Source: a virus. From it: a stretch of 61,078 bases of DNA. The stretch is taken from the IMG/VR virus record IMGVR_UViG_3300036979_000267, positions 1 through 61,078 of that record, one strand, 5' to 3'. The notes under the pieces were generated by a model, which made no database searches, was not told the DNA's origin, and saw only the letters and a program-made list of their open reading frames with translations. Positions 3,286 through 61,078 of the stretch are shown here, piece by piece. Position numbers and translations under genes: made by a program. Each line of letters opens with the position of its first letter. The stretch's first letter is position 1.

Positions 3286-4917
3286 TTAAGCCTCCGCTTT
3301 CGGAACTTCCGAATACCGACGCAAGAGCGCGTCAAAAAAGTCACGACCCTTGGCACGGACTACGTGCTCGGGTATCACATACTCGCCGTTGGACACCTTG
3401 ACCGGCCCGCCCGTGGACAGGTTCTGTGTACCGATGGAATCGCTGCGCCCGGTGCCCGGCCCCTGCAGCATACCGCCATCTGGTCCGCCCGTGGGGTTGA
3501 CCATCTGCGCCTGCGATGTCGGTGGGATTTGTCCGGCAGGTGTGGGTTGCCCTTGGCCCGGCTGCGCCATGCCGCCACCTGACTGCTCCAGCGCCCGTGT
3601 AACGGACAGGATTTTGATGATAGTCATGGGGTCGTACGATGGGGGCAGCGGGGACATGCCCTGTGCAGCAACAAACTGGCGAAGCTGTGGGTATAGCTTG
3701 GGGTTCTGCATGCTGGCCATAGCAATCTGGCCCATCACAGTTATCTCCTGCGGTGTCAATTCGCCAGACTGCAGCAGGGGCTGCATGGTCTCCATGATTT
3801 TCTGGCGGAACTGGGGGTTGCGCGCCATCTGGTTCACGCGCATCTCGATCATCTGGGGCGACGTGTCTGCCCCCATGCCGGGACGGGACATACCGGGACC
3901 GCCCGTAGGGCCGCCGTTGGCAAAGCCCATGGCCAGAAGGGGACCGCCGCCGACCTCGCCGCCGTCAGCATAACCAGACATGGAGAGGCCCACCGGGCCA
4001 CCGTCTGCCATTCCGCCGCCAGACCATCCGCCTCCGGGATTTTCAGTGCTGGTACGACTTTCTGTATCAGAACTGGTGTCTGGGCCAGTGTCCGAAGTAG
4101 TGTCTGGGCCAGTGTCCGAAGTAGTGTCTGGGCTGGTATCGGCGCCGGGCGCGGAAAACGATTCGGTTCCTGTATCTGGATACCCATAATACCCACCGCC
4201 CATCGTGGCGGGGTCTTGCTGCATGGGGTTGGCCGCAGGCACATCGGCCAGCGGAGTGCCGAAGAATCCGCCAGACCCGAAGGCCGCGTTCTGCATGGAC
4301 CGGCCCACAGGGAACCCCGCGCCCACGTTGGCCGCCGTCTGCGCAGCCATGGAGCTATCAGGTCCAGTTACGCCAGTGTTATATCCTTGATACGCGTCGT
4401 ATGCAGCGCGTCCAGCACCCAACGCCAGACCGACTGGGCCGGGCAGAAAACTAGCGGCGCCGACCATCGCCTTGCCGTAGTTCTGGGCACCGATGTCTGC
4501 GCCAATCCCAGCGACTTTACCCGCAGTACCCACCGCGCGGGAAACTCCGAACAGCCCAGCGTCCCTCGTGCCAATAGCGACGGGGGCCAGCACATTGGAA
4601 ATACCCGAAGCTACCTTGGAAAAATCCTGCAGCGTACCGGGCGAACTAGGTGTGGTTTGGAAAAGTCCTGCGCCCGGCGACTGGGTATCGTTGTCGAGTG
4701 TATCTAGTCCGGGGGTAATGTTCCCAGACGATCCGCCAGGGGAATCTCCCGACCGGCCGCCCGAAGGCATCGCCTGTTCTGGGGGCAGTATTTCGGGGGC
4801 CGCGGCGTTTACCCCCGGAACGGGTATGGACACGGGTGGCGTAGCAAAATAGTTCCCTACGCTGCTAGACGCACCGCGTGCCCCACCGAGAGATTTCCGT
4901 GTTTTCTGTGTTGCCAT
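3286..4917 (-). CDS. Large Gly/Pro-rich structural protein with Thr-Ser-Asp-Thr repeats
   Basis: The 543-residue protein is rich in Gly, Pro, Ser and Met. Residues about 260-280 form tandem TGPDTTSD-type repeats, encoded by a 24-bp DNA repeat. The C-terminus carries the motif STGGPVKVSNGEYVIP followed by VRAKGRDFFDALLRRY. A GEYVIPxxVV-type motif is common near the ends of phage structural proteins such as tape-measure-like proteins, but no enzymatic domain is visible. The ATG is followed by a basic stretch. It sits 2 bases upstream of the next gene in the late operon. Function not assigned. Confidence 0.6.
   Translation of the reverse strand: MATQKTRKSLGGARGASSSVGNYFATPPVSIPVPGVNAAAPEILPPEQAMPSGGRSGDSPGGSSGNITPGLDTLDNDTQSPGAGLFQTTPSSPGTLQDFSKVASGISNVLAPVAIGTRDAGLFGVSRAVGTAGKVAGIGADIGAQNYGKAMVGAASFLPGPVGLALGAGRAAYDAYQGYNTGVTGPDSSMAAQTAANVGAGFPVGRSMQNAAFGSGGFFGTPLADVPAANPMQQDPATMGGGYYGYPDTGTESFSAPGADTSPDTTSDTGPDTTSDTGPDTSSDTESRTSTENPGGGWSGGGMADGGPVGLSMSGYADGGEVGGGPLLAMGFANGGPTGGPGMSRPGMGADTSPQMIEMRVNQMARNPQFRQKIMETMQPLLQSGELTPQEITVMGQIAMASMQNPKLYPQLRQFVAAQGMSPLPPSYDPMTIIKILSVTRALEQSGGGMAQPGQGQPTPAGQIPPTSQAQMVNPTGGPDGGMLQGPGTGRSDSIGTQNLSTGGPVKVSNGEYVIPEHVVRAKGRDFFDALLRRYSEVPKAEA
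4077..4139 (-). repeat. 24-bp in-frame tandem repeat (about 2.6 copies)
   Basis: Two exact copies of a 24-base unit (4077-4100 and 4101-4124) and a partial third lie inside the 543-residue structural gene. Because the unit is a multiple of three, copy number changes would add or remove eight residues (a TGPDTTSD-type unit) without breaking the frame. Confidence 0.85.
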
Positions 4918-4918
4918 A

Positions 4919-5266
4919 TTACCGCCTCATGTTTTCAAGGAGCGCATTGAACGCATTCTGTATTTTAGCCACGTCAGCGGCTAACTGCTGCACATCGTTG
5001 AGCAGTTTGTAGTAGTCCGCCAGAGTTGGAGAGCCATTGGCCGCTAACTGCGTGGTGTTATAGTTCGCATCGCCCCGGGCGGAAAGCTGCGTCATCACCT
5101 GTAAATTCTGGGGGGTTACGCCCACCGAGTCATTTGAGATGCTGCGCCCGGGGCCGCGCTGGCCCATCATGATCTCTATGTTTTCCTTGAACGCCGCCAA
5201 CAGGTCATACTGCCACTGCGGAATCTTCTCATTGGGTATGGACGGTATGCCCTGAAACTTTGGCAT
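4919..5266 (-). CDS. Small structural protein, coiled-coil C-terminus
   Basis: The 115-residue protein starts MPKFQGIPSIPNEKIPQWQY and ends in a helix with heptad-like hydrophobics (LLNDVQQLAADVAKIQNAF). It overlaps the stop of the upstream tail gene by one base. The layout, a short Pro-rich anchor then a coiled coil, would suit a trimeric adaptor or fibre-attachment protein, but the family was not recognised. Confidence 0.55.
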   Translation of the reverse strand: MPKFQGIPSIPNEKIPQWQYDLLAAFKENIEIMMGQRGPGRSISNDSVGVTPQNLQVMTQLSARGDANYNTTQLAANGSPTLADYYKLLNDVQQLAADVAKIQNAFNALLENMRR

Positions 5267-25384: not shown

Positions 25385-25612
25385 TCAGTAAAGGGCGACG
25401 ATCAGTGTGGCAGTCGCAGCAGTGACGAGGTAGCACTGCACCGGTAGCAGCGTGTGATTCCCGACATCAAAGACCACTGTGCTGGCGTCTTCGCGGTTGC
25501 ACTGCACGGTGACCGTACCGGCGCCCCCGATCCAGAGTGCCCGGGCTACGCCGTTGGCACAGGGAGTACCGGGGGTGACAGCGCGTGCGGTAGTTGCGGG
25601 AGGGACGAGCAT
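25385..25612 (-). CDS. Small spike-base-like conserved protein
   Basis: The 75-residue protein contains the pattern VARALWIGGAGTVTVQC and ends LPVQCYLVTAATATLIVALY. A short protein with this spacing of Gly/Val strands and a terminal VxALY is common beside phage portal and packaging genes and resembles small spike-base proteins of gene-transfer agents. It precedes the portal in transcription order. Assignment by pattern only. Confidence 0.6.
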   Translation of the reverse strand: MLVPPATTARAVTPGTPCANGVARALWIGGAGTVTVQCNREDASTVVFDVGNHTLLPVQCYLVTAATATLIVALY

Positions 25613-25667
25613 GGGGGACTCCAGTGTAATTACCGCGCCATTCTACTACCAGCGCAGCCACATGTCA

Positions 25668-28070
25668 CTACGTCCACGCGCCGATATTGACTCTCTCGAC
25701 TTCCCGGACGGTATTGCCCATGTACGCCCCGGACTGCTGGCCGTCCGCGTGAAGCGCTAGATACTGGAGTGCGTCACAGTTGCTCACCAGCACGCCGTTG
25801 GCATAGTACGCCCCAGCCCCCTCAACGGCTATCGCGTAGACGCAGGCGGGCTGCGCTAATGGCAGCACCTGCACACACCTTAGAGCATGTTTTTGTTTTC
25901 CGGTACTTGTTCGCTTGGAACTCTGTACCGCAAACCACGCACGTGCGCGTTTCGTCATCAACTCCGCTGGCGACTCGGGCCATGCCCTGACAACTGGGGG
26001 AGCAGAACCCCCGCTTGCGGGCTCCGGCAAAGCCGTCGTACAGCTTACCGCACTGTGTGCAGACATGCTGTTGCTTTTCCCGCCCAATCCACGTAGATTT
26101 CCCGTGCTCCCGGTGCCAAGCCAGTCCATCAGGGCTACCATGCCACTGCGCAGCGGCGAGCCGGGCCGCTGCCAGATGCTCGGGCATACCGAACGTACCG
26201 TCGGCGATGCGTTCGAGGGCATGTTGCCTGCTGTGGTCGGTGCCGAGCATGAGGGCAAGGTTTTCAAGGCGGTTGTCGCTGGTGTTTCCATTGTCGTGGT
26301 GCACGTGGTGCTTGGGGGGTATTGGCCCGTTGTGGAACTCCCACACGTACCGGTGCATGTAGACCGTGCGGCGGCCAGACTCCTCATAACCAGCTTTGTA
26401 GTACCCCCGGCCTTTGCGATAGAACCGAATGCCGTTGAAAATCTGAACCGGATGTTTTGTAGCCATGGAGCGCTCCGAGTGTGGATGCTGTCCAGTATAT
26501 CAGAATACTGGAGTGCGTCAAGCGCAACCCACCCCCGTTGTGTGAGTATGGGATGGTCGGGCGTCCCCTCAAGCACCAGCCCGTCGGACAATTCCGCGCG
26601 CACCACGGGCGCAACACGGCTGTGGACCGCTGTGACCCTCCGGGGGCCAATCGGAGTCTCCACCAAGTCCCCCACGCGCAAAAGGTCCACGTCCGTCGCG
26701 CCATCCGGGGTAGCGACGCGCGTACCAGCCACAAAGCAGATGTGAGAGGCCATGTTTTTCTCCGGCTCGTCGTCCATCTCGCCCGTTTTCTTGGCCTTGT
26801 ACCGGTACTTGCCGCGCAAACCCCCAATCAAATTTAAGCACTTGTTGTCCACAAGGAACCCCGCGCCGCCGTCCACCTGTCGGTTGAGGAACTGGTCCAC
26901 CGCCCCGATGCGGGCAATCAGGGAGTTGGTGTGGGCCGAGATAGCCGTAAACCCCTCGGCTTTCAAGATGTCGTACACCGTTTTCTCGTCGGTCTGCACC
27001 CGCGAGCGTCCAGCGGGGTCGCCGATAACGAGTATGGGCGCCCCGGGAAAGTTCTGCGCCAGTAGTGGTTTCAGTATGGTACGCACGAACCGGAGCACGC
27101 CCATGCCGTCCGAGGTGGCCTCGCCCATGACCAGCAGCCTGCCCTGCATGTCAAGCTGCCCGATGACCGCACTGGGGTTCAACCCGAAGTCCATGCCGAT
27201 GAGCACTGGCCGTACCCCGTTCAGTATGGGTCGCAGCGCGCCCTTGGCGATGTGAAAGTCGGAGTCGAACGATTTCCACACGGGCTGGCCAGACAGGCTC
27301 TTGCCGAACTTCGCGTGGATGTAAATATCTATGTATTCCTCGGATTTCCCAGTTGCGAGCGTTTCATAGTACCCTGAAGGAAGCAGGTGGAGCCAGTCTG
27401 CTTCCGGGCTCGTCCCGCTAGGTTGAATTGTCACGTGTGTGTTCGATGGGGGGTTCGTCAGCAGGCCCTCGAAGTACGTGTCCATATCGGGCGGATTCGA
27501 GGCGCCCCATAGCCGGGCATTGGGGGTTCCGTCGTCCATGACACAGCCCATGCGCGGGTTACCCTTGTCGTCCGTCCCCCATTCCGGTTTGTGGGGCACC
27601 ATCATGCCATCGGGGTATCGACCCAATCGGGCCTGCAGGGCCTCGAAGATGTCCTTGTTGAGTTCGCGGAACTCGTCAATGATGGCAAAGCTCGCTTGGA
27701 GCGACAGCAGCCGCCGTACGTCTTGGGCGTCGTCAAGGCCGCGGAACAGCACATCGCACCGAATGTCACCAACAGACAGCTCAAAGCGCATCTCGGACTT
27801 GTAGTAGGTACCCGCCTCACCGTCCGGGAACCATTTTAGGAAGTCGGGAATGCTCGTGTCACGAAGTTGTTCACGTGTGTTGCGTACGAAAATGCACCGC
27901 GAGCGGCGAAAGCCATCCTTGGCCCGGGCCATGTGCCCAGCGTGGTAAAGCAGCTTCACGATCGCGGAAGTTGTCTTTGAGCTGCCTACTGGTCCACAGA
28001 TGAACGAGATGAACTTTTCCGAGGTAAAGAACGCCTCGGTGCTCGGAACTGGGGTGAAGATCAGGCTCAT
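25668..28070 (-). CDS. terL: Terminase large subunit precursor containing an intein
   Basis: The precursor is 800 residues; removal of the intein (residues 445-764) would leave a 480-residue terminase. The ATPase part has a Walker A GPVGSSKTT at 26-34 and Walker B with FAIIDEFREL (Asp132, Glu133). The RNase H-like nuclease part includes LIGMDFGLNP and ILVIGDPAG. The intein sits after Ile444, and the Cys after it is followed directly by the DALQY motif, whose Asp is the third metal ligand of TerL nucleases. The unspliced precursor should therefore be nuclease-defective. It overlaps the small subunit gene by 4 bases. Between residues about 540 and 740 the frame is a low-complexity Ser/Thr/Pro-rich out-of-frame reading of the nested endonuclease gene. 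Confidence 0.92.
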   Translation of the reverse strand: MSLIFTPVPSTEAFFTSEKFISFICGPVGSSKTTSAIVKLLYHAGHMARAKDGFRRSRCIFVRNTREQLRDTSIPDFLKWFPDGEAGTYYKSEMRFELSVGDIRCDVLFRGLDDAQDVRRLLSLQASFAIIDEFRELNKDIFEALQARLGRYPDGMMVPHKPEWGTDDKGNPRMGCVMDDGTPNARLWGASNPPDMDTYFEGLLTNPPSNTHVTIQPSGTSPEADWLHLLPSGYYETLATGKSEEYIDIYIHAKFGKSLSGQPVWKSFDSDFHIAKGALRPILNGVRPVLIGMDFGLNPSAVIGQLDMQGRLLVMGEATSDGMGVLRFVRTILKPLLAQNFPGAPILVIGDPAGRSRVQTDEKTVYDILKAEGFTAISAHTNSLIARIGAVDQFLNRQVDGGAGFLVDNKCLNLIGGLRGKYRYKAKKTGEMDDEPEKNMASHICFVAGTRVATPDGATDVDLLRVGDLVETPIGPRRVTAVHSRVAPVVRAELSDGLVLEGTPDHPILTQRGWVALDALQYSDILDSIHTRSAPWLQNIRFRFSTAFGSIAKAGGTTKLVMRSLAAARSTCTGTCGSSTTGQYPPSTTCTTTMETPATTALKTLPSCSAPTTAGNMPSNASPTVRSVCPSIWQRPGSPLRSGMVALMDWLGTGSTGNLRGLGGKSNSMSAHSAVSCTTALPEPASGGSAPPVVRAWPESPAELMTKRARAWFAVQSSKRTSTGKQKHALRCVQVLPLAQPACVYAIAVEGAGAYYANGVLVSNCDALQYLALHADGQQSGAYMGNTVREVERVNIGAWT
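25761..25776 (-). repeat. 16-bp direct repeat, extein copy
   Basis: The coding-strand sequence TGACGCACTCCAGTAT, which encodes the start of the TerL nuclease motif DALQY, is repeated exactly at 26505-26520 inside the intein, where the intein also reads DALQY. The spacing between copies is 744 bases, a whole number of codons, and encloses the nested HNH gene and intein C-terminus. Confidence 0.9.
25822..26466 (-). CDS. HNH homing endonuclease nested out of frame in the TerL intein
   Basis: A 214-residue frame, offset by two bases from terL on the same strand, starts at an ATG with GGAG six bases upstream and ends TGA. Residues about 36-75 form an HNH_3-type module: MHRYVWEFHNGPIPPKH, then HHDNG at 56-60 and NRLENL. 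Two zinc ribbons follow, CTQC/CSPSC at 136-159 and CVVC/CSKVC at 176-198. These are definite coding signatures, whereas the intein frame over the same bases is low complexity. The gene probably makes the intein mobile by cutting intein-less terL. The last 30 or so bases also encode intein block F in the other frame, so that segment is under double constraint. Confidence 0.9.
   Translation of the reverse strand: MATKHPVQIFNGIRFYRKGRGYYKAGYEESGRRTVYMHRYVWEFHNGPIPPKHHVHHDNGNTSDNRLENLALMLGTDHSRQHALERIADGTFGMPEHLAAARLAAAQWHGSPDGLAWHREHGKSTWIGREKQQHVCTQCGKLYDGFAGARKRGFCSPSCQGMARVASGVDDETRTCVVCGTEFQANKYRKTKTCSKVCAGAAISAARLRLRDSR
26505..26520 (-). repeat. 16-bp direct repeat, intein copy
   Basis: This copy matches the extein DALQY-coding sequence at 25761-25776 exactly. 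It lies 39 bases upstream of the nested HNH start codon, at the end of the N-terminal splicing segment (GWVALDALQYSDIL). Confidence 0.9.
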
Positions 28071-28666
28071 GGGGTGAGCCTCCCAAACTCAATTTCAAAG
28101 GCCTCCGCGTTGTGGTGCAGGGCCGTATCGGTGTCAGGTTCAGGGAACATTGTGAGGCGCGGGAGGGTTTCCGGGGGTGCTTTTTGGACCTTTTCGGGGA
28201 GAATTACCCCCTGAAACTTCGGTTTTTCCTCGTTTTCTAGGGTGATTTGGGTGCTTTTCGGGGCACCGTTGAGGCTAATTGTGATGCTGTAACCGGGTCC
28301 AGAGGCGATGTCGGCGGTGTGTTTCGGGGCTAATTTGCCCCAATCTACGAGGTTTTCGAGCGTTTTTACCCTCATGGCGGCCGGTGTATCGGTGTCTTTT
28401 GCCATACGGTAGATGTCGGCAAGAAGGTCTTCGGCCAGCACACGGGCTTTTGCGGAGAAACTGAAGCCGTTCTCCGTAAGGTCTGCCTTGAAGTCCTTCA
28501 GGTACCGCTGATACTGGGGGTTTTTGGCTATCGCCTCGTACTCCGGCAGCGTCAGGCACTCGTGAGAGAGGAAAACGGACAGGGGTTCCCCGGGGCCAAG
28601 CGCATTCCGGGCTTCGGACAGGGCAAGCTCTCGTAGGTTTTGGTCGGCGGCAATGGATGGGTGCAT
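28067..28666 (-). CDS. terS: Terminase small subunit (probable)
   Basis: The 199-residue protein precedes terL with a 4-base overlap, the canonical position. It has an N-terminal helical part with an ALSEARNALG helix and SHECLTLPEYEAIAKNPQYQRYL, consistent with a DNA-binding helix-turn-helix, a central helical domain (LAEDLLADIYRMAKDTDTPAAM) for oligomerisation, and a C-terminal segment (about 150-199) with Pro/Glu-rich character that usually contacts the large subunit. The initiating ATG is 28666. Assignment by position and pattern. Confidence 0.78.
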   Translation of the reverse strand: MHPSIAADQNLRELALSEARNALGPGEPLSVFLSHECLTLPEYEAIAKNPQYQRYLKDFKADLTENGFSFSAKARVLAEDLLADIYRMAKDTDTPAAMRVKTLENLVDWGKLAPKHTADIASGPGYSITISLNGAPKSTQITLENEEKPKFQGVILPEKVQKAPPETLPRLTMFPEPDTDTALHHNAEAFEIEFGRLTP

Positions 28667-55346: not shown

Positions 55347-58300
55347 TCATTCTCCTTTGAGTTCTCTGATCCGCTCGTCCCTGCGCTGCAGGAGTTCGTC
55401 ACGGCGGGCGTTGAAGGCTATTTGAGCCTCCGCCAAGTCCTTATACTGGGACGATAGCCGCCTCATTTTAGCCACTTCTTTGTCGAACTCCGCATTGATA
55501 CCCCGCGCGACCATGGCCTGAACTGCACCGGCTTCGATGGTGTTGAACGAGTGCACCTGCAACCCGAGGAACTTCTGAGCGGCGTCCAGATTGCCCACGG
55601 GGTTGCCGGTGATGCCCAGTTCGGGTTTACCCTGCCCGCCCATAGCCTTGGTAGCCACGTCCGCAGCGGTGGGTGCCCACGGGGGTGTGAAGGTCTGTGC
55701 CATGAACTTGGCCCGGTCGCCTACTTCCTCCCATGTGCTATCCGTGGGCGCAGAGAGTGGTTTGCCTGTGTAGGGGTCCACACCGCCCATGAGTCCGATG
55801 ATGGCGTTGGTGAACGGGCCGCCGGGGGATACAGGCTGTGGCCAGTTGTTGATGCCGAGGAAGCCCTGTGGCTGCTTATCAAACCAGTTACCGGTGGGTA
55901 CATACGCACCCAGCTTGTAGTACACAGGGTTCTGGTCGTCGCCCAGACCGGGCAGGCGGATGTAGGCGTGCGGGCCGACGCCCCACAGACGGGACTGGAA
56001 TTTCTCCGGGCCGCCTTTGCGCACCTCGTCGTCCTCGTCCCCGCCCATGGCAGCGTCCAGAATGGAGTAGGCCAGCAGCACGTTGACCAGTTTCCACGGC
56101 TTGTGCAGGGCGATGTGCCCCAGCACCGGCATGATGGCGTAAGACCATGACACAAAGGGCAGCACAGATTGGCGCATAACCTTGACGGCCTTGGAGTCGA
56201 TGTCGTAGTCGAGGAAGGCAAAGCGGGCGTAATCCCCGGCTTTCTTGAACTCGGCGGGGGTCAGGTATGTCTTGCCCTTGGTCGTGGCAATCTCGCCCGC
56301 TTTGGACAGGAAGGCAGCCAGCCGGAACGCGTTGTCCTCTGCAGCGTAGAAGGCCGTGATGCGGTCGTCGGTCTTGCCGCCCTCCTTGACCCACTTGGCC
56401 AGCTTGTCTCGCTTGGCCAGTTCCGTGCTCGCCCAGCCGCGCAATTTGTCGTACACGCCAGTGGGCTCGTTGGTTGCGGCCGATGCTTTGTACGCCTCGT
56501 ACAGGGAACGCTTGACCTCGATGCTGGAGAAGTCGCCCAGCATGGCCCCGGAGTTCATGAACGCGTGCATGACGCGGCGCTCCTCGAGGGCCATGGCGTC
56601 CGGGTTCCTGGCGTAGTTGAACAACATGGCTGTGGCCTTGCCCACGGTAACCATAGGGATGTCGTGCATCATGGCCAACGTGGTATTGCTGGCGATGTTG
56701 GTCAAGTGCGTGCCGGGGTTGTAAATCGTCTTGGCCTTTTTGAACAGGCGCATGGTGTCGTGCAGGGCGCTAATGTCGTGGATGGGGCGGCGATCCGTCA
56801 TGTCCTGCACAGCAGCCCAGACATCGGAGCGGACCAGCTTGCCTTGCAGCGCGCCGTACGTGCCCACGGGCACCGAGACCACCTTCCCATCTATCTCCAC
56901 CTCGATGTCCCCCTTGGCGGGAATCTGCACCCATTGATGCTTGCTGCGGTATATACCCTGCAGCTTGGGGGACTTCGCCTCCGGGTCGGACAGGTTCAGG
57001 ATGGAGTTGGGGAGCACTGTGATGTCGAGCGCCTTGTTGAGTTGCTTGACGTTGTCGAAAACCACGCTGTCGGCGTCGCCCGACTTGCTCGCAATGGCAT
57101 CTGTCAGGTTGTTAGATGCGTAGCTGGCCGCCAGAATCGCCATGGTATTGCGAAGCGCGTTGGCCACGGAGTCTGCTTTGCCCTCGTCGATGGCGGCTTT
57201 GGCGTCCCGGTACGCTGTAAAAACGTATGTGTCGGCTTCGACCGCCTTGCCCTCGAACGTCCAGATGAGGCCATCGTTGGCCGGAAACGTGTCCGCAGGG
57301 AGGCTATCCCACCGGGACTCGTGGACAAACCCAGCGGGTATAGGCTCCTTGGTGGGGTTTACTGGGTCGGTCTGCATGAGTTGCTTATACCGGCCGCCCG
57401 GTGTGGGCTTGCCCATGTTGTCCAGTGGCCCGTAGATGTTGTCGCTCATGGACTTGAGCGTCTTTTGCGCGGCCAGTTCGTTCAGCTTGCGGGCGCCCAG
57501 TGCGTTGCTGGACACTTGGTCGGCGCTGGTGGCGAACACCATGGACTCGGAGAATTTCAGGTCGCGGAAAAATGCTTTAGCCTTGGGGCTGCGCAGCGCG
57601 GCAATGTACCGTGCCCGGTGCTCCAGCATCATGTCGGCCAGCTCCTTGGCTTCGACTTGGGCCTTGTCGCCGACGCGGATTTCTTTCACATCGCCGTCGA
57701 GGTATCTGATAATTTCCAGCACGATAGGCGCATCGAACGAAGCGATCTTGTTGGCCAGCGCGTCAGTCACGATGGCACTGGTGTGCTTGTCGGTCTTGAA
57801 CGTCTGGAACCACTCGCGCATCGGCACAGGCACACCGAACGTGGGGTTGACGTAGGAGATGTACTTGGACAGGGCTGGGGATTTGTCCTTGATGTAGTTG
57901 GCGACTTTGCCTGCGGTCTTTTGGAATGATCCCTCCTGCATTTCCAGTTCACCCTTGTCGTTCATCACCTCCTGCCCTGACAACTTCGTCCACCCCATCG
58001 CCCGGAACAGGTGCTCGGTGATGATGTTGGGAATCAGCTTCTTTGTGAACTGGGTGAGGTCGAGCGACTGGGGCTGCCCCGGCTGCGCAGCGTTGGAGGC
58101 GGGAGTGGAGGAGGTGACGGCGGCATTGAGCGTACTCCCACGCTTCACCACGTTTTCTCCAAACGCTTTGGCGCGGTCGTTGACCGTGGACTCTTCTAGT
58201 AATCGGGCGGTGGCGTCCATGACATCGTTGGCCACGGTGTTCGACACACCAAGGAAGCGCTGGAGTAGCTTGGCGAACATGTCGTACAGCTTGTTGGCCA

Positions 58301-61078
58301 GCGAAGCGAACTTCTGGTCCTGTGTGCTGGGTATCTGGCGCAGCGCGGCGACAAAGTCGGGCATGGTCATGCCGTAGGACACCAGTTCCAGCAGGGCAGC
58401 GTTGATGTCCCCCGGTTTGTCGGACTTGGCCAGCCCAGCAATGATGTCGTAGGCGGCCTTGGCGTTCGGGCTCTTGAGTTTGGAGCGGTCGTAGGCCACC
58501 ACGTCCTTGACGGCTTGGCGCAGACGCGCGACGCTCGGGTTGTTGGGCTGTGTGTACACAAGCCACTGCAGGGCAGCGTGAAGCGCCTCGTGCAGCGTTA
58601 CCTCGGCAGATGCGGTTTTAGACAGGTGGATGGTGTCTGTCGCAGGTGTGTAGCTGGCGTGCTCGCCCTCTGCCACGTCGAAAACGACCTTGGGTTTCTT
58701 GGTCTGGCCGCGCATAGCCCGCGACAACGCCGATGCCAGCATGCGTTCGTACGACGTGTTGCCGTGCGCCCACAGGTAGTTGAGTACGCCTTGGAATCCC
58801 TTTTCTTTGGCACCCTTCGTGTGCCCTGCGTAACCGTTTTCTGCGGCGGCGACCAGCGGCTCCTCTGCAGCGCCTTTCTTCTGGATTTCCCACGCGTTGC
58901 GCTTCTCGCCCGTGGAGAGATTGACAAGGTTCTCGGTATTCTCCAACTGCCCGTCGTTGAACATTTTCCACGCGCGACTGAGATTCACGTCCATGGAGGT
59001 CCAGTATGCGCCCTTATCGGTGTCGGTGGTTTTCTTGGCCATCTCGGTCTGCACGCGGGTCTTGAACGCCGCCACGAGGGCGTTGGCGTTGGCCGCCGAG
59101 CCGGATGCAGCAATCAATTCTTCGACGGCGTTGCGCAGTTGCTGCTGGGCTAGTTGTCGAGCCTCGGTGTATTGGGTAGCCTGCAGCGTTCGGGTGCCCG
59201 CGGACTTAGAGATGCTCCCTTCTGACCGCAGCGTGTTGCTCGCCAGATTTGACAACTTCTCGTACGCCTTGGCCACCTTTAGCGCGGCGTCGCGCATGCC
59301 GGTCATCTGTGTAGCGTACTTCTTGGTCAGGTCTTTGTCGGTCTTGGCCGTGCCCTCGACGTAAATCAATGGGGTAGCTGGGGCATTGGTGTCAGGGTTG
59401 AACGGCTTGCGCAGTGCGCGCACGATACCTGCCATGATGTTGCGGCCGATGGTGATACGCCCCTTGGGTTTGCCGCCCGGCAGGGATTGCACGGCAGACT
59501 CCAGTGCCTTGTTGGTCATGGACATACCGGCACCAGAGGCCATAGCGTCCGCAACTGCCTGCGCTAGTTCGGACTCGGGTGTGGATTCGTCGAAGGGTTC
59601 GGCAACCGTTGCCGTTGCTTTGGGTGCCTTTGGACCCTTGGTCGGGGCGGGCTTGGCCGGGGCGACAGGTGCGACAGGCTCTTTACCCGCGATCTTGTCG
59701 TCGATCATCCCCAGAATTTGCGCCTTGGTGGGCTTGCCAGTGATCTGGATGCCCATGTCCTGCGCGGTACGCGCGATGTCGCTGCGGGTCTGCCGGGCGA
59801 GTTTCTGGCGGTCAAAAGGCTCCGCAGGAGTTTGTGGCTCCTGCGGAGTAACTGAGGGGGCGACCGCAGAAGAAACTCCCTCAGAAGGAGACAGAGGTGA
59901 TTCTACCCCGAAAGCACCCGATACGGCTGCGATGCGTTGCTCGACGAGGTCTTCTTTGCGGGCTTGTTCGGCTGCGATGCGTTCTTGCTCGGCCATGGCC
60001 GCCGCACGTTGCTCCTCCAGTGACCCATATCCGCCTTCGAGCGTGGGCTGCGACTGGGGCATACCCTGCCATTCGACACCCGCCTGCCCAGCAGACACAG
60101 GAGCCACTTCCCCTTGGGGAGCGCCTTGGAGTCCCACCATGCTCAGTGGTCCCATGTCGGACGGGGTCATGCCCTGCCACTCCTGTCCGGCGGTAGTAAT
60201 TGGGGTGGATGCTGGGTTGTATCCCATGGGGATAGCGGTGCCCGCGAATATATCTGGCTGGTCCATAACGCGAGGGTCGGCGGACTGCATTTGCGGGGTA
60301 GGGGGATACATTGCAAACTCTCCGCGCCCGCCGAACATATCGGATGTCGGGCCTTCGGAAACTGGCGCGTACTCCTGCGCCGGAGCCGCTGTCTCGGGGG
60401 CCTGTGGCAGCGCTCCCTTCGGGCGGTTCGCATACCCGGCGGCCACGCCAAACGGGGCCATGAGCGCGGACATACCGAGGCCAACTTTCGCACCCTCGAC
60501 GCCTGCGGCGAACGGGTCTCCGGTGGTGATCCCGGCATCGCGCTCCACGGCGGTCTGCCCGTAGGCTTGACCGAATTCTGTACCAGCCTGCACACCGGCG
60601 TTGGCCAGCAAGTCCACAGCCACGCGTTTGCCCTGCCCCATCTGCACGCCCTTGGCCATGGCGGAAAGACCCTTGCCAGCGCCAGTAATCAGCCCGAGAC
60701 CCAGCCGGTCGCCAATAAGTTCTCCACCCGCCTCGATAGCGCCGGTCTTCAGGGCCGCAGCCTTGGCATCCTCTTGGCTCAGGCCCGCTTTAAGACCTCG
60801 CTCGTAGGTGTCGGACGCTGTGGAACCGAAAAACAGTCCACCGGCTACGCCTGTGCCCACGATGGGAGCCGCCATCATTGCGGCGCCCGCAGCCACAGAA
60901 GGGGCAAGGGACCGGCCGCCCTTGATGAGCGCAGAGGCGACTTCGCCCCGACCATACACGTCGGGGTTGTACTGGGCTTGGCCCGTGTCGAACTCGTCAC
61001 CCGTTTGTTTCAGGAATTCTTCGGCCGCTGACCCCGCCGGGGCAGCAAACTGCGCGGCGCGCACACCCATCTGGGGGA
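55347..61078 (-). CDS. Giant internal virion protein, main part (full length 2071 aa across the join)
   Basis: This part runs from residue about 165 (Met at 61070) to the stop at 55347; the frame begins at 611 on the other side of the join. Residues about 218-246 are an Ala/Gly-rich hydrophobic segment, followed by long disordered Pro/Gln-rich linkers. A zinc-peptidase-like LHEALHAALQWL lies at 990-1001 (His991, Glu992, His995). Further on, TIYNPGTHLTNIASNTT at about 1610 and a two-span membrane-like region near 1795-1840 resemble large polyvalent-protein-associated domains of ejected phage proteins. It probably enters the host with the DNA and forms the ejection channel or modifies host proteins. 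Evidence is by pattern and context. Confidence 0.8.
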   Translation of the reverse strand, partial: PQMGVRAAQFAAPAGSAAEEFLKQTGDEFDTGQAQYNPDVYGRGEVASALIKGGRSLAPSVAAGAAMMAAPIVGTGVAGGLFFGSTASDTYERGLKAGLSQEDAKAAALKTGAIEAGGELIGDRLGLGLITGAGKGLSAMAKGVQMGQGKRVAVDLLANAGVQAGTEFGQAYGQTAVERDAGITTGDPFAAGVEGAKVGLGMSALMAPFGVAAGYANRPKGALPQAPETAAPAQEYAPVSEGPTSDMFGGRGEFAMYPPTPQMQSADPRVMDQPDIFAGTAIPMGYNPASTPITTAGQEWQGMTPSDMGPLSMVGLQGAPQGEVAPVSAGQAGVEWQGMPQSQPTLEGGYGSLEEQRAAAMAEQERIAAEQARKEDLVEQRIAAVSGAFGVESPLSPSEGVSSAVAPSVTPQEPQTPAEPFDRQKLARQTRSDIARTAQDMGIQITGKPTKAQILGMIDDKIAGKEPVAPVAPAKPAPTKGPKAPKATATVAEPFDESTPESELAQAVADAMASGAGMSMTNKALESAVQSLPGGKPKGRITIGRNIMAGIVRALRKPFNPDTNAPATPLIYVEGTAKTDKDLTKKYATQMTGMRDAALKVAKAYEKLSNLASNTLRSEGSISKSAGTRTLQATQYTEARQLAQQQLRNAVEELIAASGSAANANALVAAFKTRVQTEMAKKTTDTDKGAYWTSMDVNLSRAWKMFNDGQLENTENLVNLSTGEKRNAWEIQKKGAAEEPLVAAAENGYAGHTKGAKEKGFQGVLNYLWAHGNTSYERMLASALSRAMRGQTKKPKVVFDVAEGEHASYTPATDTIHLSKTASAEVTLHEALHAALQWLVYTQPNNPSVARLRQAVKDVVAYDRSKLKSPNAKAAYDIIAGLAKSDKPGDINAALLELVSYGMTMPDFVAALRQIPSTQDQKFASLANKLYDMFAKLLQRFLGVSNTVANDVMDATARLLEESTVNDRAKAFGENVVKRGSTLNAAVTSSTPASNAAQPGQPQSLDLTQFTKKLIPNIITEHLFRAMGWTKLSGQEVMNDKGELEMQEGSFQKTAGKVANYIKDKSPALSKYISYVNPTFGVPVPMREWFQTFKTDKHTSAIVTDALANKIASFDAPIVLEIIRYLDGDVKEIRVGDKAQVEAKELADMMLEHRARYIAALRSPKAKAFFRDLKFSESMVFATSADQVSSNALGARKLNELAAQKTLKSMSDNIYGPLDNMGKPTPGGRYKQLMQTDPVNPTKEPIPAGFVHESRWDSLPADTFPANDGLIWTFEGKAVEADTYVFTAYRDAKAAIDEGKADSVANALRNTMAILAASYASNNLTDAIASKSGDADSVVFDNVKQLNKALDITVLPNSILNLSDPEAKSPKLQGIYRSKHQWVQIPAKGDIEVEIDGKVVSVPVGTYGALQGKLVRSDVWAAVQDMTDRRPIHDISALHDTMRLFKKAKTIYNPGTHLTNIASNTTLAMMHDIPMVTVGKATAMLFNYARNPDAMALEERRVMHAFMNSGAMLGDFSSIEVKRSLYEAYKASAATNEPTGVYDKLRGWASTELAKRDKLAKWVKEGGKTDDRITAFYAAEDNAFRLAAFLSKAGEIATTKGKTYLTPAEFKKAGDYARFAFLDYDIDSKAVKVMRQSVLPFVSWSYAIMPVLGHIALHKPWKLVNVLLAYSILDAAMGGDEDDEVRKGGPEKFQSRLWGVGPHAYIRLPGLGDDQNPVYYKLGAYVPTGNWFDKQPQGFLGINNWPQPVSPGGPFTNAIIGLMGGVDPYTGKPLSAPTDSTWEEVGDRAKFMAQTFTPPWAPTAADVATKAMGGQGKPELGITGNPVGNLDAAQKFLGLQVHSFNTIEAGAVQAMVARGINAEFDKEVAKMRRLSSQYKDLAEAQIAFNARRDELLQRRDERIRELKGE
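60952..61078. repeat. Terminal direct repeat, right copy (contig overlap)
   Basis: It is identical to bases 1-127. The giant gene frame is continuous through the join when one copy is removed, confirming circular closure. Confidence 0.93.

Follow-up and report, generated by a model that had tools for sequence, protein, structure and literature searches.

A Predicted Mobile Intein in a Phage Terminase with a Complete HNH Gene Overprinted in the -1 Frame

Introduction

Out-of-frame HNH insertions in phage genes are already known: the ShiLan domain and the Pacc40 insertion place an HNH gene in another frame of mycobacteriophage DNA methylases, with no intein (Arsenault, Gosselin, Gogarten 2025, PMC11855218). 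Here we describe an intein in the terminase large subunit (TerL) encoded by IMG/VR record IMGVR_UViG_3300036979_000267, analysed as one stretch of 61,078 nucleotides (positions 1 to 61,078, hereafter the window), in which a complete HNH gene occupies a second reading frame. For overlapping frames, PMC11855218 cites a preprint on a non-canonical actinobacteriophage intein architecture (10.1101/2025.01.02.630785), in which inteins with an out-of-frame endonuclease may already be described. In introns, collaborative homing is the process by which an endonuclease pre-adapted to the site of a splicing element joins that element, and I-TevI represses itself through an operator that resembles its homing site and lies over its own promoter (PMC2988022). 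The entry of endonucleases into inteins and the origin of split inteins are open questions, to which the HNH family described here is relevant.

We propose with good confidence that the window encodes a mobile TerL intein and that the linker of its splicing domain is overprinted, in the -1 frame, with a complete, separately expressed HNH homing endonuclease gene. The proposal is based on gene structure, conservation of the register, selection on both frames, predicted folds and empty alleles.

Results

Organisation of the TerL Locus

Both open reading frames (ORFs) reported in a first-pass annotation of the window were found, offset by +2/-1. The terL frame was open for 800 codons and ran through N-extein, intein and C-extein without interruption. 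The parts of the locus, all on the minus strand, are listed below; L numbers designate the collected loci, L001 being the window gene.

25668-28070, minus strand: TerL precursor ORF, 800 aa (PHROG terminase large subunit)
26739-28070, minus strand: TerL N-extein, residues 1-444, ending in ...MASHI (alignment with the intein-free L003 and ~70 empty homologues)
25779-26738, minus strand: intein, 320 aa, C445-N764 (Hint_2, TIGR01443, AlphaFold Hint fold)
26475-26738, minus strand: N-terminal splicing half of the predicted Hint fold, intein residues 1-88 (AlphaFold, pLDDT mostly about 90 or above)
26494-26521, minus strand: putative sigma-70-like promoter TTGACG-16-TATACT with extended -10 TG, in the intein codons for LDALQYSDIL, upstream of the HNH ATG
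26505-26520, minus strand: copy 1 of the 16-bp direct repeat TGACGCACTCCAGTAT, located within the intein and overlapping the spacer of the promoter
26473-26476, minus strand: Shine-Dalgarno-like GGAG, 6 nt upstream of the HNH start codon
25822-26466, minus strand: nested HNH endonuclease gene, 214 aa, with an HNH_3 core and two zinc ribbons, in the -1 frame with respect to the intein
25896-26450, minus strand: low-complexity Ser/Thr/Pro linker, intein residues 97-281, pLDDT ~30, coincident with the HNH gene
25824-25883, minus strand: dual-coded stretch, HNH end (helix 196-212) and intein block-F strands 286-305 (AlphaFold models)
25779-25895, minus strand: C-terminal splicing half of the predicted Hint fold, intein residues 282-320, blocks F and G (AlphaFold)
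25761-25776, minus strand: copy 2 of the 16-bp direct repeat, at the C-extein start (DALQY), directly after the insertion site
25668-25778, minus strand: TerL C-extein, C765 to the stop, beginning CDALQYLALHADG (alignment with intein-free alleles)

The precursor matched the PHROG terminase large subunit (4.6e-22), and Pfam, NCBIfam and PHROGs showed terminase flanking the intein splicing region. Pfam Hint_2 matched TerL residues 444-481 (2.1e-6), and TIGR01443, the intein C-terminus, matched residues 744-765 above the cut-off. The intein-free allele L003 fixed the borders at C445 and N764, with residue 765 as C+1. Block A, annotated as lying after codon 445, starts at C445 itself.

Residues C1, T59, H62 and N320 of the intein were invariant among 21 relatives. 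In a wider set of 65 intein relatives Cys1 was always present (65/65), and the +1 residue was C in 56 and S in 9. In the AlphaFold model of the intein, residues ~1-88 and 282-320 formed a Hint fold, mostly with a pLDDT of about 90 or above, around a disordered insert (97-281) located exactly over the HNH gene. This insert is the low-complexity Ser/Thr/Pro text first noted in the intein frame. The top Protein Data Bank (PDB) match of the model in Foldseek was the gp41-1 split intein (8.8e-7). The window intein has VEGAGAYYANGVLVSN in this region, lacking the block-F His and with Ser in place of the penultimate His. Among the 65 relatives the penultimate His was present in 28 and replaced by Ser in 24, and the block-F His was present in 46. 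These two His residues are not strictly needed in every intein. By every sequence and predicted-fold test except these His residues, with its Cys1, block B TxxH, terminal Asn, Cys/Ser at +1 and Hint fold, the element is an intein. A group I intron was ruled out, as the search for its RNA in 25500-28200 returned no Rfam match up to E=1. A 15-bp near-repeat (93%) linked window positions 25548-25562, in a downstream 75-aa ORF (CANGV), to 25792-25806 in intein block G (YANGV).

The Nested HNH Gene

The nested ORF matched PF13392 HNH_3 (E=1.8e-15), and the AlphaFold model of its product was confident (pLDDT 88). The best PDB match of this model in Foldseek was I-HmuI (E 0.03, prob 0.99), and YacG zinc ribbons were also listed. 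The gene has the properties first attributed to it, namely its own ATG, a GGAG six bases upstream, an HNH_3 core and two zinc ribbons. The question of which frame is conserved over the overlap was answered in favour of HNH: between L001 and L002 the substitutions were distributed 24/20/68 over HNH codon positions 1/2/3, and the identity was 0.87 for HNH against 0.62 for the intein frame. Further pairs agreed with this distribution. Judged by these substitutions, the HNH protein is under purifying selection, and the overlapped part of the intein, a loop predicted to be disordered within a predicted Hint fold, is poorly conserved. The final ~20 codons of the HNH coincide with two intein block-F strands, so both products are constrained at the HNH 3' end. 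In 61 of 65 loci the HNH stop was located 75 nt or less from the intein end.

Recurrence of the Nested Architecture

Loci came from scans of IMG/VR with an HNH profile and of bacterial genomes, and from a few phage records. Each HNH homologue was classified with six-frame hidden Markov models for the intein N blocks, the intein C blocks and HNH. The HNH was nested in the -1 frame in 88 loci (84, plus 4 with the C part only in sequence), lay between the halves of a split intein in 11 loci, plus 4 with only the N half seen, and had no detected adjacent intein in 29, many of them beside terL. No in-frame endonuclease fusion was found among the classified HNH homologues, all 88 nested loci being in the -1 frame. 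Seven TerL homologues at 100-46% identity kept both frames in the same register, the third frame being full of stops. Dozens of nested loci, ranging from 32 to 68% GC, shared the register and had no intein-frame stop, and the arrangement was also present in the complete genomes of TJE1, Highwayman and MD07. The hosts were overwhelmingly TerLs of several families, and most intein junctions were located directly before a DALRY-like motif, with a few at other sites. These comparative data support the first-pass annotation of a contiguous intein with a complete HNH gene in another frame, and indicate that the nested architecture is real and selected, not accidental.

In public records of the Tetrasphaera phage TJE1 (L082), Highwayman (L083) and MD07 (L084), the terL annotation passes through the unannotated nested HNH, which is a warning for annotation, as is the unannotated TerL C half of phage CL2 (see below). 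Very long ORFs in L107 (1236-4787) and L156 (2-3625) had two intein N-block matches each, which suggests two inteins in one phage gene.

Constraint on the Overlapping Frames

The intein frame of 61 nonredundant nested genes contained 0 stops, against 127 expected by synonymous permutation and 239 expected from extein codon usage. The third frame had a mean of 15 stops per gene. In the free-standing relatives the frame equivalent to the intein frame had 1-13 stops in 28 of 29 genes (the exception being L200), and in the split relatives 6-12 stops were present in every one. NTA codons followed by A or G were absent from nested HNH genes (0/197) and frequent in free ones (86/154); Met followed by Lys, Asn, Ile or Met occurred 0 times in the former and 10 times in the latter. 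On these counts the intein frame is selected to stay open, and the constraint extends to the amino acids of the HNH protein. In HNH genes, stops are far fewer in the +1 frame than in the +2 frame. The constant -1 register is explained by the third frame, which with an average of 15 stops leaves only one out-of-frame register practicable.

The nested arrangement had been expected to let the endonuclease drift or be lost without breaking splicing. Free drift does not fit the constrained codons and dipeptides or the 3' end dual-coded with block F; loss remains compatible, by in-frame deletion only, as in L048. This locus (4640-5017) is a mini-intein at the same TerL site, with neither HNH nor DALQY mimic, and is possibly a case of HNH loss or a pre-invasion state. 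In L200 (Spirosoma) the +1 frame of the HNH relative was open and no intein blocks were recognised; this HNH may be nested in another host gene, in a ShiLan-like manner.

Empty Alleles and the Repeat at the Insertion Site

The intein-free L003, with 96% amino-acid identity in TerL, has SHI-A-DALQY at the site that is SHI-[intein]-C-DALQY in the window. Some 70 empty TerL homologues were also aligned, with Ala, Ser or, less often, His instead of Cys at +1. The alignment with intein-free TerLs, called for by the first-pass annotation, gave the borders C445-N764. It also showed presence and absence at a conserved target in related genomes, as expected of an HNH homing element. Because a 96%-identical TerL has no intein and intein-free relatives have no Cys+1, the comparison points to a mobile TerL intein. 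Around the insertion, identity between the window and L003 was about 0.89 on the left and 0.95 on the right, which is only suggestive of a recombination boundary at this site.

The exact 16-bp repeat joins the intein just upstream of HNH to the start of the C-extein. A DALxY-like motif was present at the intein repeat position in 35 of 68 nested inteins, and was absent from the mini-intein. At matching residues of the 35 loci codon identity was 47, below the 58.7 expected. Concordance of R or Q between the repeat motifs was 25/25, resting on 1-2 independent contrasts. A permutation of own versus other repeats gave p=1e-4, but was confounded by composition and kinship. The repeat was therefore set aside as a DNA-level recombination scar or homogenised operator on the codon identity and the few contrasts. 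For the same reasons the perfect repeat of the window probably derives largely from the shared DALQY peptide. Operator, scar and common descent are all candidate explanations of the DALQY repeat, with no preference.

Expression of the HNH

A Shine-Dalgarno sequence (SD) of at least 4 matches preceded 69% of nested HNH starts, against 22% of control starts. The promoter sequence TTGACG-16-TATACT of the window was conserved in L001, L002, L004 and L005. Over 75 nested loci the mean promoter score was 8.46, against 7.45 for the synonymous-codon null; 20 loci had p<=0.05, and the Fisher combination was 5.5e-15 over loci that are not independent. The best reading of these SD and promoter sequences is that the HNH is transcribed and translated separately. 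An inverted repeat, TCCAGTAT-N6-ATACTGGA, overlaps the putative promoter at window positions 26491-26512; it was incompletely conserved in L002.

Free-Standing and Split Relatives

Free-standing HNH genes were annotated as direct neighbours of terL in Pseudomonas phages PAE1 and FBPa53, Sphaerotilus SN1, Exiguobacterium EauM-23 and Salmonella PhiSTP1, and next to terS-terL in Acinetobacter BP10. In Lactobacillus phage CL2 (L167), positions 506-1954 encode an N half of TerL with intein N blocks at its end, followed by the HNH. An unannotated ORF at 2487-2771 contains intein C blocks and the TerL C-extein (FIVHN/CMDATRY). The two CL2 halves are predicted to be joined by trans-splicing. The same HNH family also lay between the two parts of split TerL inteins in L182 (Staphylococcus borealis 51-48), L098, L103, L106, L116, L158, L176, L178, L179 and L188, and the +1 frame of the HNH in these loci had many stops.

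The free, nested and split states were interleaved on the HNH tree, with at least 16 changes; its well-supported branches force at least 4 for the nested state. The most likely course is that the nested family came from TerL-adjacent free-standing HNH genes that moved into inteins at their target, a direction that we infer from these data.

Elsewhere in the window, a 1907-aa minus-strand ORF at 55347-61070 had no PHROG match.

Discussion

A Model of the Overprinted Intein and Its Alternatives

We propose the following model, in which splicing, separate translation, cleavage, homing and the direction of evolution are the conditional steps. Translation of terL would give one precursor of 800 residues, in which the Hint halves (intein residues ~1-88 and 282-320) would fold around a disordered loop of 185 residues. 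Excision of the intein would join SHI to CDALQY and produce a TerL of 480 residues. From the same DNA, translation at an internal start, served by an SD of its own and probably by a promoter embedded in block-B codons, would give the HNH nuclease. The nuclease would probably cut intein-free terL near the conserved DALQY/DALRY site, and repair of the cut terL would copy in the whole intein. TerL-adjacent free-standing HNH genes would have entered inteins at their target, after which selection held the intein frame open; relatives with the HNH between two intein halves are split inteins. A broader generalisation has somewhat less than an even chance of being right. It holds that overprinted inteins are widespread, mainly in phage terminases, with an endonuclease transcribed and translated separately from a promoter in splicing-domain codons, and that this HNH repeatedly invaded inteins at its own target, followed by repeated breakup to split inteins.

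Several points weigh against these proposals. The splicing efficiency of the window intein is uncertain because the block-F His is missing and Ser replaces the penultimate His. The HNH promoter is putative, being a consensus match, and the HNH target site is putative. The nested loci are phylogenetically non-independent. Support for the HNH tree is weak in many parts, with 52 of 108 branches open, so the direction and number of origins are uncertain.

It is unlikely that the HNH is a packaging cofactor, like the terminase-adjacent HNH protein gp74 of HK97, and not a homing endonuclease. The location of the family inside or beside terL would suit such a role, as in some phages HNH proteins encoded beside terminases help in cos cleavage, a point discussed in PMC10448857. 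However, the top Foldseek match is the homing enzyme I-HmuI, and the HNH is inserted at a predicted splice-competent intein site instead of being maintained as a gene for packaging. Homing is favoured because presence varies within one TerL clade (the 96%-identical L003 and most other relatives are without HNH in the compared stretch) and because Cys+1 came with the element. Programmed -1 ribosomal frameshifting from the TerL/intein frame, yielding a TerL-intein N-HNH fusion, is less probable still. The HNH frame is always -1, and a slippery X_XXY_YYZ heptamer was found in register near the HNH start in 16 of 75 loci. This heptamer was absent from the other 59, including the window, and on this count frameshifting was set aside. 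Moreover, HNH starts are enriched for SD and promoter sequences, the HNH frame of the window is closed 11 codons upstream of its ATG, and the constant register is explained by the fewer stops of the +1 frame.

Bipartite expression, in which the intein C half would be started internally and the open frame across HNH would not be read through, appears very improbable. Split relatives do exist (L098, L103, L116, L182 and L167 of CL2), but stops across HNH are avoided only in the contiguous form (0 versus 6-12 in split loci), which would be unexpected unless ribosomes pass. As to a sequencing error, a frameshift or a chance overlap, the probability is negligible. High GC eases open alternative frames, and for the window gene taken alone the probability of an open frame was about 0.07-0.08. 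The comparative data refute this reading: 88 loci share one register, dozens of them with 32-68% GC and zero stops, the terL frame of nested loci is never interrupted, and the complete genomes of TJE1, Highwayman and MD07 have the nested form. The mobile intein with a separately expressed, overprinted HNH is retained as the preferred reading.

The HNH family occurs in three states at one target: free beside terL, nested out of frame, and between split-intein halves. The nested state offers a strong natural example of dual coding, for which the same gene, free-standing and unconstrained, provides a clean control. The split TerL inteins of culturable phages and prophages may provide new trans-splicing tools.

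Comparison with Known Systems

The ShiLan/Pacc40 insertions are similar to the window in having a zinc-finger HNH encoded out of frame within an insertion that does not close the host frame, with a homing-like distribution (PMC11855218). At its 5' end the ShiLan insertion is similar to the host sequence on its 3' side, a feature paralleled by DALQY in the window, and the Pacc40 HNH has relatives beside the methylase, as the HNH family of the window has beside terL (PMC11855218). ShiLan has neither a splicing domain nor a detectable ribosome binding site (PMC11855218), whereas the window has a predicted Hint intein in an essential host protein, TerL, together with SD and promoter sequences. Among the phage-record matches listed, none of those with this HNH family was a mycobacteriophage; the form nested in terL was listed for TJE1, Highwayman and MD07.

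Canonical inteins of the PI-SceI type share with the window the Hint fold, an endonuclease between the splicing halves and a conserved site in an essential gene. Their endonuclease is an in-frame fusion; that of the window lies in another frame with its own start, as in 88 of 88 nested loci, and is predicted to be a separate protein. The split inteins of fractured genes, such as gp41-1, provide the best structural match of the splicing domain and also have an endonuclease between the halves, an arrangement found here in L167, L182, L098 and others. The window differs from these in its contiguous precursor, encoded by one ORF. Group I introns with HNH enzymes such as I-HmuI are comparable in the type of endonuclease and in the free-standing relative adapted to the site of the splicing element (PMC2988022), and differ in that splicing of RNA takes the place of the predicted protein splicing. 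The entry of the HNH into TerL inteins resembles, by analogy, collaborative homing. As with I-TevI, the putative HNH promoter has in its spacer a copy of the extein sequence that adjoins the insertion site, a likeness that is only suggestive given the codon identity (47 versus 58.7). On its sequence and predicted folds, the window element is neither a canonical endonuclease-intein, nor a split intein, nor a ShiLan element.
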